This document shows, one piece after another, positions 59,223-63,631 of a stretch of 64,000 nt of DNA. The notes beneath the pieces were generated by a model. That model ran no database searches. It was not told the DNA's origin and was given only the letters and a program-made list of their open reading frames with translations. A program made the translations under genes and the position numbers. Source of the DNA: Pseudomonas sp. B6002 (GTDB lineage Bacteria > Pseudomonadota > Gammaproteobacteria > Pseudomonadales > Pseudomonadaceae); contig NZ_JACAOY010000007.1 of assembly GCF_013385985.1 (NCBI RefSeq), forward strand, positions 124,001 to 188,000, written 5' to 3'. The number at the start of each line of letters is the position of its first letter. The stretch's first letter is position 1.

Positions 59223-60242
59223 TCAGCGCAGTGCAGCGATCGCATCCACCGACTGGCGAATCAGTTCCGGGCCCTTGTAGATAAAGCCCGAGTACAACTG
59301 CACCAGGCTGGCACCGGCCGCGATTTTCTCGGCCGCATGCTTGCCTTCGGTGATGCCACCCACGGCGATGATCGGCAGGCGCCCTGCCAGTTCGGTCGCC
59401 AGCACCTTGACGATATGGGTACTCTTGTCACGCACCGGCGCGCCCGACAGACCGCCCGCCTCGTCACCATGGGCGAGCCCTTCGACGCCAATACGGCTGA
59501 GGGTGGTGTTGGTGGCGATCACTGCGTCCATGCCCGAGTCCACCAGGGCCTGGGCCACCAACACGGTTTCCTCATCGCTCATGTCCGGAGCAATCTTGAT
59601 GGCCAGCGGCACGCGCTTACCGTGGCGCACGGCCAGGTCTTCCTGGCGCTGGCGCAGGGCTTCAAGCAGTTGCTTGAGGGAATCACCAAACTGCAGGCTG
59701 CGCAGGCCCGGGGTATTCGGCGAGCTGACGTTGACGGTGACGTAGCTGGCATGGGCGTAGACCTTGTCCAGGCAGATCAGGTAGTCATCCACCGCACGTT
59801 CAACCGGGGTGTCGAAGTTCTTGCCGATATTGATCCCGAGAATGCCGGTGTACTTCGCCGCCTGCACCCGTGACAGCAGGTGATCAACCCCCAGGTTGTT
59901 GAAGCCCATGCGGTTGATGATCGCCTCGGCTTCCGGCAAGCGGAAGATGCGTGGCTTGGGGTTGCCCGGTTGTGGCCGTGGGGTCACGGTGCCGATTTCG
60001 ACAAAACCGAACCCCAACTGTGCAAAACCATCGATGGCCGCGCCGTTCTTGTCCAGGCCGGCAGCCAGGCCGACCGGGTTGGGGAAGTCCAGCCCCATTA
60101 CCGACACCGGCATTTTCGCCGGGGCCTTGCATACCAGGCCATTGAGCCCCAGTCGGCCACCGGCACCGATCAGGTCCAGGGACAGATCGTGGGAGGTTTC
60201 CGGGGAGAGTTTGAACAACAGCTGGCGGGCCAGGGTATACAT
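59223..60242 (-). CDS. pyrD: quinone-dependent dihydroorotate dehydrogenase
   Basis: A 339-residue flavoenzyme of the inner membrane surface that oxidises dihydroorotate to orotate in pyrimidine synthesis. FMN-binding and catalytic parts include [28 protein letters not shown] and [12 protein letters not shown]; the class 2 N-terminal helix for quinone access is present ([17 protein letters not shown]). ATG at 60242 gives MYTLARQL. It follows rmf in convergent orientation. Confidence 0.94.
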
Positions 60243-60327
60243 GGGCGGGCTAGACTCGGATGGCGGTAAAGGTGGCGGCGATTATAGCCGGGGTGGCCGT
60301 GTACACGCGAGGCATGCCGTCCAATCG

Positions 60328-60789
60328 TCAATAGCGCTGCGCGACCAGCGCCTCATAGTGCGCCCAGATTTTCTGCGCGTAGCGCATGCGCAAGGTCTCA
60401 CGCTGCGGCCCCGGGCCTGCGCCGATGTTGTAGGAACCCACCGCCGTCCAGTTGTAGCCGAAACGCTGGACGAACTCGGCGAGAATCGAAGCGCCCACCT
60501 CCACCGACAGGCAAGGCTCGCTCAACAAGCGTTCCTCGGTGATACCCTGCTTGAGCAGGCGCGGCAAGTGAATGCTGTTGATCTGCATCAAGCCGATGTC
60601 ACGCGTGCCGTTGCGGTTGGCGTGGTTTACCGCTTGCGTGCGATAACCCGACTCCACGGCAGCGATGGCCTGTAGCAGCTCGGGCTCAAGGTCATAGCGG
60701 CTGGCAGCCTCGTTCCAGCAGTTGGCCAGCGCTTGATTGCCGCCCAGGCACGCCACCAGCAACAGGCTTTTGCTCCAGGTACTAGCCAT
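60328..60789 (-). CDS. IagB-like lytic transglycosylase (type III secretion type)
   Basis: A 153-residue secreted protein with a signal peptide (MASTWSKSLLLVACLGG...ALA). The SLT domain has the catalytic Glu in AAVESGYR and the GLMQINSIHLP motif. Size and sequence resemble IagB of Salmonella SPI-1, which opens peptidoglycan for the needle complex. Its ATG overlaps the stop of the HilA-like gene (ATGGCTAG), just as iagB follows hilA in SPI-1. No strong ribosome site, so translation is probably coupled. A housekeeping transglycosylase is the main alternative. Confidence 0.8.
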   Translation of the reverse strand: MASTWSKSLLLVACLGGNQALANCWNEAASRYDLEPELLQAIAAVESGYRTQAVNHANRNGTRDIGLMQINSIHLPRLLKQGITEERLLSEPCLSVEVGASILAEFVQRFGYNWTAVGSYNIGAGPGPQRETLRMRYAQKIWAHYEALVAQRY

Positions 60790-61150
60790 TGCTGGCTTGC
60801 CCACAGGCGGAACACACACCCCGCTTTTCAGCCTGCACCGGGCAGGTAAAGCGATAACCCCGGCCGTAGATCGTCTTGATAAACCCCTTGTCGGTCTTCA
60901 AGTGCTTGCGCAACGCGTAAATGCACCGCGTCAGCGACTCCTCGGCCACTTCGCCCCGAGGCCACGCCTGCTCCAGCAAACGGTCCTTGGTCATCAGCGC
61001 GCCACCGGAGCCCAATAATAGACGCAGAACCTGGCCCTCCTTGGGAGGCAACTGAATATCCGCGCCCACTCCCGTCAACCGCCCATCGCCGTGCAAGGTC
61101 CAGCGATCAAACACGAGGGACGTCGACACTCCATCACTTGCGACGGCCAT
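60782..61150 (-). CDS. HilA-like DNA-binding domain protein (short)
   Basis: A 122-residue protein that is almost only an OmpR/PhoB-type winged helix (about residues 12-105: PPKEGQVLRLLL, TRCIYALRKHLK, IKTIYGRGYRF). Salmonella HilA has this domain at its N-terminus but is about 550 residues long; everything after the DNA-binding part is missing. Instead a cysteine-rich tail appears (CPVQAEKRGVCSACG). GAGG precedes the ATG at 61150. It is coupled to the IagB-like gene. Confidence 0.75.
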   Translation of the reverse strand: MAVASDGVSTSLVFDRWTLHGDGRLTGVGADIQLPPKEGQVLRLLLGSGGALMTKDRLLEQAWPRGEVAEESLTRCIYALRKHLKTDKGFIKTIYGRGYRFTCPVQAEKRGVCSACGQASNG

Positions 61151-61364
61151 GCACACCTCTGTATTCGACTTTCGACATTGAAACCCTCATTGCCACTACT
61201 GGCTGCCCAATCAACGCCATGACTATAAAAACCTGTTCCGCAACCCACGCCAGGACAAAGCCGATTTACCCGTCGATTTTCAGAAGTACCCGGTAAGAAA
61301 ATTCTCCACCCACGCCAAGGCTCACCACTGCTCATTCATTTGCCCGCCAATACATCGAACGAAT
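61151..61364. other. gap between the HilA-like and secretin-fragment genes
   Basis: I find no remnant of a secretin pore domain here. A TATAGT on the minus strand (61222-61227) may belong to the regulator's promoter. Confidence 0.35.
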
Positions 61365-62168
61365 TCAGGGGGGCGCTGGCTCGTTCGCCTGCTGGGGTAC
61401 GTCCAACTCCGCCACCCATTGCTTGATCAACTTGACCTGCGCCGGTGTGCCCCTGACCAGCAAACTGTTGATGTCGGGATAGGCAATGACGGCGAACCCC
61501 TTGTCGGCCAAAAGGTGCTTGCGGTTACGCACCAGCAAGGTCTCGATCATGGAGTTCATCCCCGGCACCGTAGGTTCATCTGCACCGGCCCCGGACTTAC
61601 GGTCCGCCACAAAGTGATGGAGCACTGCCACCACCCCAAACGCCTGCTCGGGCACCTTTGCAGGCTGGCGATCCATCAATTGCGCCAACCGCAGCACGCG
61701 GTCGACATAGCTCGGCGGCCCGGACACATAGAACATGCGCTGCCCGCTCTCACGCAGAGGGAAGCGGGACTCATCCAGCCCTGTCCCTTGCATGAGGCTG
61801 CGCAGCCTGCTGACGGAAATATGCCGGAGCACGACGGCCGAACGTCTAATCTCGGCAGCCTCGTAGAGGTACAGCGCTTGTCGGTCACGGTGCCAGATCA
61901 GCCCCTCCTGCCTGGCCAGAGCCTCCAACACCTGCTCGGGCGCAGCAAAATCGAACGATCCACTGACGCGCTTGCGATCCACCTGCCGGCTGACCACAAC
62001 CGCAACCCCCAGAGGCCCGGACAACGCGTTGAGTACGCTGCCCAGGCTTGCATCCTGCGTCTGATAGACCTCGCCCCAGGCCGCCGCGCAACAGAGCAGC
62101 AACACAGCACACAACACCCACCGGCATAGCCAGTGACAGGTCAACGTTGCGGCGGAGTCAGCGTGCAA
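61365..62168 (-). CDS. type III secretin N-domains, InvG/MxiD-like, lacking the pore
   Basis: A 267-residue secreted protein. After a hydrophobic signal (about residues 12-32) come an N0-like domain (QTQDASLGSVLNALSGPLGV), an N1-like domain and an N3-like domain ending LLVRGTPAQVKLIKQWVAEL. InvG-type secretins continue with some 250 residues of beta-barrel pore; here the protein stops at DVPQQANEPAPP. The start appears to be TTG at 62168 with GAGG ten bases upstream; no ATG is available. It may be a decayed secretin or a repurposed periplasmic ring fragment. Confidence 0.75.
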   Translation of the reverse strand: MHADSAATLTCHWLCRWVLCAVLLLCCAAAWGEVYQTQDASLGSVLNALSGPLGVAVVVSRQVDRKRVSGSFDFAAPEQVLEALARQEGLIWHRDRQALYLYEAAEIRRSAVVLRHISVSRLRSLMQGTGLDESRFPLRESGQRMFYVSGPPSYVDRVLRLAQLMDRQPAKVPEQAFGVVAVLHHFVADRKSGAGADEPTVPGMNSMIETLLVRNRKHLLADKGFAVIAYPDINSLLVRGTPAQVKLIKQWVAELDVPQQANEPAPP

Positions 62169-62404
62169 AGTGGGTTTACCTCGGCGGTCTGGCGTAGAGA
62201 AGCGGCCATACTGAAAGGCAAGCGGCGCTCAATCTTGATGAAAAGCTGATGACATTGCGTGGCATGTGCCTTGCTACACACTTGGCATCAGGGCCCACAC
62301 CAACGTCGGAGCGGGCCTACGGACAAAGGCGTCGTTACCCTCCAATGGCCCATAGCGCCCGCCGAGGGAACGACGCTTTTTTTTGAGAGAAAAGGTAGGT
62401 GTTG
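62169..62404. other. divergent intergenic region between secretin fragment and nasS
   Basis: No gene is visible. It should hold the nasS promoter; I cannot assign hexamers reliably. Confidence 0.35.
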
Positions 62405-63631
62405 ATGAACGATTCGGTCGGCAACAGCCCGGTGAATAATCCACTGGCGTGGGTCAACGGCAGTGATGCTCCGGAAAAGAGCAGCCTGGACCTGGGTTTC
62501 ATGGCGCTGACCGATTGCGCATCGCTGGTGGTCGCCGCCACCCAGGGTTTCGCCCAACCCTACGGGCTGACACTGAACCTCAAGCGCCAGTCCTCCTGGG
62601 CCAACCTGCGCGACAAACTGGTCAGCGGTGAGCTGGACGCCGCCCATAGCCTGTACGGGCTGATCTACGCCGTACACCTGGGTATTGGCGGTGTAGCGCC
62701 CACCGAGATGGCGGTGCTGATGGGGCTCAATCAAAACGGCCAGAGCATCAACCTGTCCCACGGTTTGCAACAGCAGGGCGTGACCACTCCCGAGGCACTG
62801 GATCGCCACGTGCACCAAAGCCGAACAAAACTGACCTTCGCCCAGACATTTCCCACGGGCACCCACGCCATGTGGCTGTATTACTGGCTGGCGAGCCAGG
62901 GCATCCACCCCTTGCAGGACGTGGACAGTGTGGTGGTCCCGCCGCCGCAGATGGTCGCGCACCTGCAGGCCGGGCGCATCGACGGTTTTTGTGTCGGTGA
63001 GCCCTGGTGTGCCAGCGCAGTCAAGCAACAACAGGGCTTCACCCTGGCGACCACCCAGGCGATCTGGCCCGACCATCCGGAAAAGGTACTCGGCTGTACC
63101 CAGGCGTTCGTCGAGCAATACCCCAACACGGCGCGGGTGCTGGTGATGGCCATTCTTGAAGCCAGCCGTTTTATTGAAGAAAGCCAGGAAAACCGTCGCT
63201 CTACCGCACAACTGCTCAGCGCCCGCGACTACCTGGATGCCCCGCTCGACTGCATCGAACCCCGACTGCTGGGCACCTATGACGATGGCCTGGGCAACCA
63301 ATGGCAAGACCCTCACGCACTGCGCTTTTTTGCCGATGGCGAGGTAAACCTGCCCTACCTGTCGGACGGCATGTGGTTCATGACCCAGTTCCGCCGCTGG
63401 GGTCTGTTGCGCGAAGACCCGGACTACCTGGGCGTCGCCCGCCATGTCCAGCAACTGGACCTGTACCGTCAGGCCGCCAGCGCGGTGGGCGTTTCAAGCA
63501 ACCCCCAGGACATGCGCAGCAGCCAACTGATCGACGGCAAGGTCTGGGACGGCAGTAACCCCGCCGCCTATGCGCGCAGCTTCCGCCTGCACGCCATGGC
63601 CGACCACGCCAGCCGCCAAGCCTTGCGCTGA
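62405..63631 (+). CDS. nasS: nitrate sensor NasS
   Basis: A 408-residue protein of the NrtA/NasF nitrate-binding fold, without a signal peptide. NasS binds nitrate or nitrite in the cytoplasm and otherwise holds the antiterminator NasT inactive. Family features include LGFMALTDCASLVVA, FPTGTHAMWLYYWLASQG and VGEPWCASAV. ATG at 62405 has AGG five bases before it; a GTG two codons earlier is possible. It is followed 13 bases later by nasT. Confidence 0.88.
   Translation: MNDSVGNSPVNNPLAWVNGSDAPEKSSLDLGFMALTDCASLVVAATQGFAQPYGLTLNLKRQSSWANLRDKLVSGELDAAHSLYGLIYAVHLGIGGVAPTEMAVLMGLNQNGQSINLSHGLQQQGVTTPEALDRHVHQSRTKLTFAQTFPTGTHAMWLYYWLASQGIHPLQDVDSVVVPPPQMVAHLQAGRIDGFCVGEPWCASAVKQQQGFTLATTQAIWPDHPEKVLGCTQAFVEQYPNTARVLVMAILEASRFIEESQENRRSTAQLLSARDYLDAPLDCIEPRLLGTYDDGLGNQWQDPHALRFFADGEVNLPYLSDGMWFMTQFRRWGLLREDPDYLGVARHVQQLDLYRQAASAVGVSSNPQDMRSSQLIDGKVWDGSNPAAYARSFRLHAMADHASRQALR

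Follow-up and report, generated by a model that had tools for sequence, protein, structure and literature searches.

Two ends of an SPI-1-type secretion island are retained as a three-gene module between nasS and pyrD in a Pseudomonas clade

Is a three-gene fragment of a type III secretion system (T3SS) debris, as remnants of secretion systems are commonly classed, or has it been kept? The question is raised by three minus-strand open reading frames at positions 60328-62168 of a 64,000-nucleotide stretch of the Pseudomonas sp. B6002 genome (termed here the window), which an initial annotation, made from the letters alone, had read as an InvG/MxiD secretin without its pore, a HilA DNA-binding domain and an IagB transglycosylase. 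They are flanked by a nasS-like gene on the plus strand (62399-63631, followed by nasT), which forms the left border of the slot, and by pyrD on the minus strand (59223-60242), which forms the right one. As that annotation had also stated, no needle, ATPase or export genes adjoin the module: between nasS and pyrD lie only the N-terminal part of sctC, the DNA-binding domain of hilA, and iagB. The locus is therefore a remnant and not a member of the SPI-1 T3SS type, which is recognized by export apparatus, ATPase, needle and both membrane rings together. A remnant bordered by nasT and pyrD, comprising invG, iagB and a "pseudogene related to hilA", was described by Redondo-Nieto et al. in 2013 for P. 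fluorescens subgroup V, including SBW25, A506, SS101, BG33R and other strains, according to the accessible part of that paper (PMC3570484). Within the open-access part of the literature, the remnant is described there without mention of selection, of a CxxCG tail or of a repeat.

Profile searches and PDB sequence matches bear out all three gene identities. The sctC/invG fragment (61365-62168, minus strand) encodes 267 aa from a TTG start and matches the SPI-1 N0 domain (T3S_SPI-1_N0, PF21304, E-value 1.3e-19, 70.6 bits) and Secretin_N (PF03958, 1.4e-18, 67.3 bits), as well as positions 4-234 of the 463 in the SctC model (TIGR02516, 1.8e-48), where its 165 bits fall under the whole-family cut-off of 238. 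No match to the pore domain PF00263 was found in the profile search up to an E-value of 1, and the protein consists of a signal peptide (recognized by eye), N0, N1 and N3, with neither the beta-barrel nor the C-terminal tail. With PDB sequence matches to InvG (1.6e-40) and MxiD (2.6e-38), the fragment belongs with the SPI-1 secretins and not with a non-type-III family.

The second gene, mini-hilA (60782-61150, minus strand), encodes an OmpR-type winged helix with the HilA recognition helix, followed by a short CxxCG tail. It matches Trans_reg_C (PF00486, 2.1e-15) and, over residues 12-108, the HilA/EilA family (NF009037, 4.2e-29), with 101 bits against a cut-off of 589; the large C-terminal domain is missing, and the mini-HilA proteins of 74 loci measure 121-144 aa versus 414-553 aa in eight full HilA proteins. 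The recognition helix ESLTRC...LRK is common to all 74 mini-HilA and all eight full HilA sequences, whereas the CxxCG motif, encoded in the window as CSACG at 60800-60814 (minus strand), occurs in 74/74 of the former and 0/8 of the latter.

The third gene, iagB (60328-60789, minus strand, 153 aa), encodes a lytic transglycosylase of the SLT type. Searched as the frame 60328-60819, it matches SLT (PF01464, 6.9e-26, 90.6 bits) and IagB (NF011856, 2.3e-51), which is its best NCBIfam match at 173.5 bits, under the whole-protein cut-off of 208; the PDB sequence match is the EscI-EtgA chain (4.1e-25). Like the IagB/EtgA transglycosylases of T3SSs, it has the SLT domain with the VES and GLMQIN motifs, but it stays below the NCBIfam cut-off and has no adjoining T3SS. 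A signal peptide is visible by eye, and the VES motif, which contains the presumed catalytic Glu, is found in all 73 iagB copies. Alignment with relatives indicates that mini-hilA probably starts at ATG 61150 (the initial annotation used a frame from GTG 61156) and iagB probably at ATG 60789; the overlap between the two genes, noticed earlier, is thereby refined to about 8 bp, the iagB start lying over the hilA stop.

In order to trace the origin of the module, 299 Pseudomonas genomes (one per species, the window's own included) were searched with the secretin fragment. Some match was found in 110 of them, many being remote secretins. The module is carried by 47 genomes, 46 in addition to the window's own (class A, sctC identity 47-62%), and the order nasT-nasS-sctC-hilA-iagB-pyrD is kept in 44 of the 46 relatives, the exceptions being one locus at a contig end (L060) and one without iagB (L078). 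The three genes are thus inherited together and in order, not separately. Another 25 genomes (class B) carry full-length secretins with 40-44% identity, one of them ended by a contig border (G232). Among 15 class B loci (L086-L099 and L106), nasS lies beside the secretin in 11 and not in the other four, within the stretch examined. Extended DNA of nine class B islands revealed hilA and iagB in eight (G275, G262, G267, G044, G125, G037, G146 and G026), with pyrD beyond them in six of these eight; in the ninth (G217) none of hilA, iagB and pyrD was seen in the DNA examined. Five islands (G275, G262, G267, G044 and G125) show both borders, with invG on the nasS side and hilA-iagB on the pyrD side. 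Genomes that belong to neither class yielded 27 nasS loci, and pyrD directly adjoins nasS in 23 of these.

The complete Pseudomonas islands (class B, and those of F113 and 2P24) share with the module the homologous invG, hilA and iagB, the slot, the order, the strand and a direct repeat described below, and differ in having a full HilA without CxxCG, a secretin with full PF00263 and many frames between invG and hilA. Since complete islands occupy the same slot with the same order and strand, synteny and trees show that the window module represents the two ends of an SPI-1 (Inv/Mxi/Spa) island, the interior of which was lost before the clade diversified. The earlier proposal of an SPI-1/Inv remnant is hereby confirmed, in line with the accessible description in PMC3570484. 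We saw no sign of a mobile carrier: a plasmid search in distant mode returned seven records with 8-9% query coverage each, in genes for lytic transglycosylases or hypothetical proteins.

The initial annotation had left two readings of the remnant, orderly decay and a small retained module, and the distribution of the genes favors the latter. A search with pyrD found 47 genomes at an identity of at least 96%, and this set coincides with the 47 genomes of class A (the best of the remaining genomes, G225, has 93%, and three incomplete or odd genomes gave no match). Within this clade sctC is present in 47 genomes, hilA was seen in 46, with one locus ended by a contig border, and iagB in 45. For a broader sample we added 60 named loci from species genomes, 50 of which are class A, and dropped identical triplets, which left 75 distinct class A loci of 97, the window included. 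Every copy present is uninterrupted (sctC 75/75, hilA 74/74, iagB 73/73), in agreement with the intact frames noted for the window; "uninterrupted" means here that an open frame covers the match up to at most 30 bases from either end, so that changes at the very ends escape, and altered ends do occur in sctC of L132 and L153 and in iagB of L043. Lengths of the spacer that separates sctC from hilA run from 132 to 476 bp and include all three classes modulo 3; as the spacer length varies while the genes are uninterrupted, insertions and deletions do occur here, yet none is seen inside the genes.

The substitution pattern agrees with this picture. Between the window and its nearest relative, L122 (Pseudomonas sp. 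P7548), dN/dS is 0.19 for sctC (bootstrap interval 0.13-0.28), 0.06 for hilA (0.02-0.13) and 0.12 for iagB (0.07-0.21), i.e. well below 1 and higher than for the flanking genes pyrD (0.05) and nasS (0.04); all values are Nei-Gojobori (NG86) estimates without a codon-bias model, and the last 13 hilA codons, near the iagB overlap, were dropped beforehand. Eleven other pairs with barrel-less secretins gave 0.08-0.34, with the highest upper bound at 0.64, and for sctC over 775 pairs at moderate synonymous distance dN/dS has a median of 0.21 and reaches at most 0.54. In the N-domains the median is 0.27 among barrel-less forms (95 pairs) versus 0.18 among long forms (290 pairs), which indicates that constraint is weaker in the former. 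Retention, uninterrupted frames and dN/dS together show that the two ends of the island are kept by selection as a three-gene unit. Synonymous divergence between the window and L122 is about 0.56 in the three module genes, 0.16 in pyrD and 0.28 in nasS; recombination or a constraint on codon usage could lie behind the higher value of the module.

Analysis of the secretin forms reveals a stepwise loss of parts. The secretin of L122 (265 aa) likewise lacks barrel and tail, and the C-terminal tail is missing in the window, L122, L132 and L153, while a C-terminal helix resembling that of full secretins, which persists after loss of the barrel, is present in 70 of the 74 loci not ended by a contig border (68 recognized by pattern, L127 and L156 by eye). 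Even the long class A secretins are altered: alignment of the 480-aa protein of L048 with that of the class B locus L108 shows that L048 lacks the stretches that we take to be the gate strand and the lip motif, and PF00263 matches L048 over positions 1-137 of 169 (39 bits) and L108 over positions 1-166 (111 bits); the other long class A forms resemble L048 by eye. In one lineage (L084 and L085) N0 is gone. The beta domain was probably lost twice, once in a group of 18 sequences that includes the window and once in a group of five (L079-L083). A first quick tree required up to five losses, its starred branches forcing two. On the flanking-gene tree, which omits L055, with its split nasS, and L060, which has no pyrD, a single loss for all 23 barrel-less forms is disfavored (AU test, p 0.027), and holding together the 18 forms, a group defined after sight of the first tree, gives a better likelihood (AU p 0.75); the sctC tree also groups them, with a support of 99. 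As to the enzyme, L078 (genome G101, apparently the same genome as the P. grimontii record L165) has lost iagB, with pyrD following hilA within about 260 bp. The locus keeps sctC and hilA, which argues that the enzyme is not always needed; their dN/dS against two relatives is 0.18-0.24, although part of this divergence may predate the loss.

The regulatory DNA is conserved along with the genes. Upstream of sctC we found a candidate HilA-type operator (62231-62254, minus strand), consisting of TCATCA-N5-TCATCA, a direct repeat with an 11-bp period that is perfect in the window, followed by AGATT. The corresponding pattern TCA-N8-TCA-N-GA was detected upstream of sctC in 73 of the 75 class A loci versus 0.16 expected from shuffles. 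L055 was at first counted as a miss on account of its split nasS, which had misplaced the search, and was regained by a search upstream of sctC, raising the total to 74/75 with L049 as the miss. The nasS of L055 (genome G176) is divided into two frames, with the break near residue 117, and the adjoining module is uninterrupted. All 20 class B loci with nasS in the stretch also carry the repeat (two pairs among them appear to be the same genome, and five loci without nasS in the stretch are left out of the count). Since alignments of class A and B served to define the pattern, these counts are descriptive, and the independent control is provided by nasS loci without the module, where the repeat is present in 0/27; these came from 30 genomes hand-picked among those of neither class, one of which had no match and two only remote ones, and one genome's second copy is not counted. 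The same control rules out the repeat as a control site of nasS. A scan of the window genome with a related pattern gave a sole perfect match, the one before sctC, and no second good match near another T3SS of this genome; with two further sites at two mismatches each, global regulation by mini-HilA through this repeat is rejected.

OmpR-type winged helices bind direct repeats one helical turn apart, and the HilA box of Salmonella is such a repeat. In strain 2P24, deletion of hilA lowers the expression of invG, as stated in the accessible part of the report (PMC8490769). Phylogenetic footprinting further revealed a conserved CTTTCAGTATGG block (62206-62217, minus strand), a possible -10 region of sctC. 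A neighboring GG-N10-GC block (62258-62274, plus strand), seen by eye in loci with and without the module, belongs to the divergent nasS promoter outside the module and presumably is sigma54-like. The mini-hilA promoter region (61221-61304, minus strand) is conserved in an alignment of 14 module loci and comprises a TCTTAC block (61290-61304), a TTTGTCCT block (61248-61263) and TTTTTATAGTC (61221-61232), all on the minus strand. The TATAGTC element that precedes mini-hilA is found before hilA in six of the eight full islands. A strict TATAGTC plus TTCCT pattern was detected in only 48 of the 74 loci, in some at other spacings, the misses being small variants by eye, and for this reason only the 14-locus alignment was used. 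A consensus promoter scan over 60200-62450 predicted no promoter before either sctC or mini-hilA.

Compared with the remnant of PMC3570484, taking its strains as the accessible text describes them, where hilA is called a pseudogene and the locus is not treated as retained, our analysis adds an uninterrupted and constrained mini-hilA with a conserved new tail, resolved secretin forms and a conserved repeat. What is new is thus the retention itself: a module carried throughout the sampled clade, free of interruptions, under purifying selection after loss of the pore, and sharing a candidate control site with the intact island. Such intact, ordered retention across a group of Pseudomonas from soil and plants suggests that the genes have a job of their own and are not simply rotting.

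As the explanation with the better chance of being right, we favor that the ends of the SPI-1 island are kept for local remodeling of the cell wall without protein secretion, by a periplasmic SctC scaffold and IagB under the control of mini-HilA. Since the recognition helix and the repeat are conserved together, mini-HilA would bind the candidate operator before sctC and control that gene. SctC, in the window form without barrel and tail, would be exported and form a periplasmic N0-N1-N3 ring or scaffold, and IagB, with its presumed active site intact, would cut peptidoglycan where this scaffold sits. The module would thus remodel the wall at that site and secrete no proteins, and its small regulator might respond to redox state or metals; wall remodeling under a winged-helix regulator, as envisaged in the initial annotation, fits the parts as predicted from their sequences. 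The fuller version, in which a disarmed T3SS locus has turned into a new envelope module, fixed in the clade and independent of secretion, with a pore-less ring that positions the wall enzyme and CxxCG as a redox or metal switch, we put forward only tentatively, as doubtful in its entirety. If this role were true, it would make a clean case of the wall-working parts of a weapon kept for another use, in plant-associated strains.

The main rival, which we judge unlikely, if worth serious attention, is that another T3SS of the cell makes use of the module, which would lend accessory parts to a system of the Hrc1/Rsp type, IagB opening the wall and the N-domains of SctC aiding assembly. IagB is by family a wall-clearing enzyme of T3SSs. 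Outside the locus, the window genome does contain type III secretion genes: two SctV genes, at C34 and C20, score above the family cut-off. Rsp systems are carried by six strains of the fluorescens group, SBW25 and A506 included, according to the accessible text of PMC3390384. SctV over the cut-off was detected in 46 of the 47 module genomes versus 45 of the 227 genomes without module or SPI-1 island; however, all module genomes form one clade, which makes this close to a single coincidence and not 46. G234 (locus L052) moreover has no SctV over the cut-off and keeps three uninterrupted module genes with dN/dS of 0.13-0.20 against two relatives, and the absence of another good match to the repeat in the vicinity of those systems also speaks against the loan.

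Less probable still is that the regulator alone matters, with mini-HilA controlling genes elsewhere and sctC and iagB persisting by linkage or mild use. The dN/dS values for the window pair, lowest in mini-hilA, the promoter region that it has in common with full islands and the CxxCG tail in every locus agree with this possibility, but sctC and iagB are likewise constrained and uninterrupted, and the sole perfect repeat in the genome precedes sctC. A precedent is found in ETT2 of E. coli, an SPI-1-related island with a HilA-family regulator, YgeH, which we take to be a full-length HilA-like protein. From the window, ETT2 is set apart in that only the DNA-binding domain with its CxxCG tail is kept here, in a module of three genes. 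ETT2 is often degenerate (PMC5005338), and its HilA-like YgeH is still functional in E. coli strain 042 (PMC4210603), both as described in the accessible parts of these papers. Plain decay, i.e. a slowly eroding pseudogene cluster as implied in 2013, can draw on the stepwise loss of secretin parts, the loss of iagB in one lineage, the altered ends in L132, L153 and L043 and the pseudogene label in the accessible text of PMC3570484, but it is very improbable given 75 distinct loci without an interrupted copy despite insertions and deletions in the spacer, dN/dS values that stay far under 1 once the secretin was truncated, a repeat that is kept and an sctC never lost among 47 genomes, and the present data argue against that printed label for hilA.

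The second T3SS locus of the window genome, at C20, shows features of its own. Beside its SctV gene lies a split secretin (L102:8260-11680), with one frame for the N-domains and a separate frame for the pore. This pair resembles the split secretin of the Rhizobiales-type T3SS (presumably RhcC1/RhcC2), which also includes a separate pore-less N-domain protein comparable to the window sctC; in that system, in contrast, the pore comes from a second gene, and export genes are found as well. Near this second T3SS we also found another small winged-helix protein (G000:C20, L102:16440-16922), whose best NCBIfam match is HilA/EilA with 43 bits, and which likewise consists of the DNA-binding domain only and carries a CxxC tail of its own. 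Regulators made of a DNA-binding domain plus CxxC may therefore be a wider type near T3SS loci.
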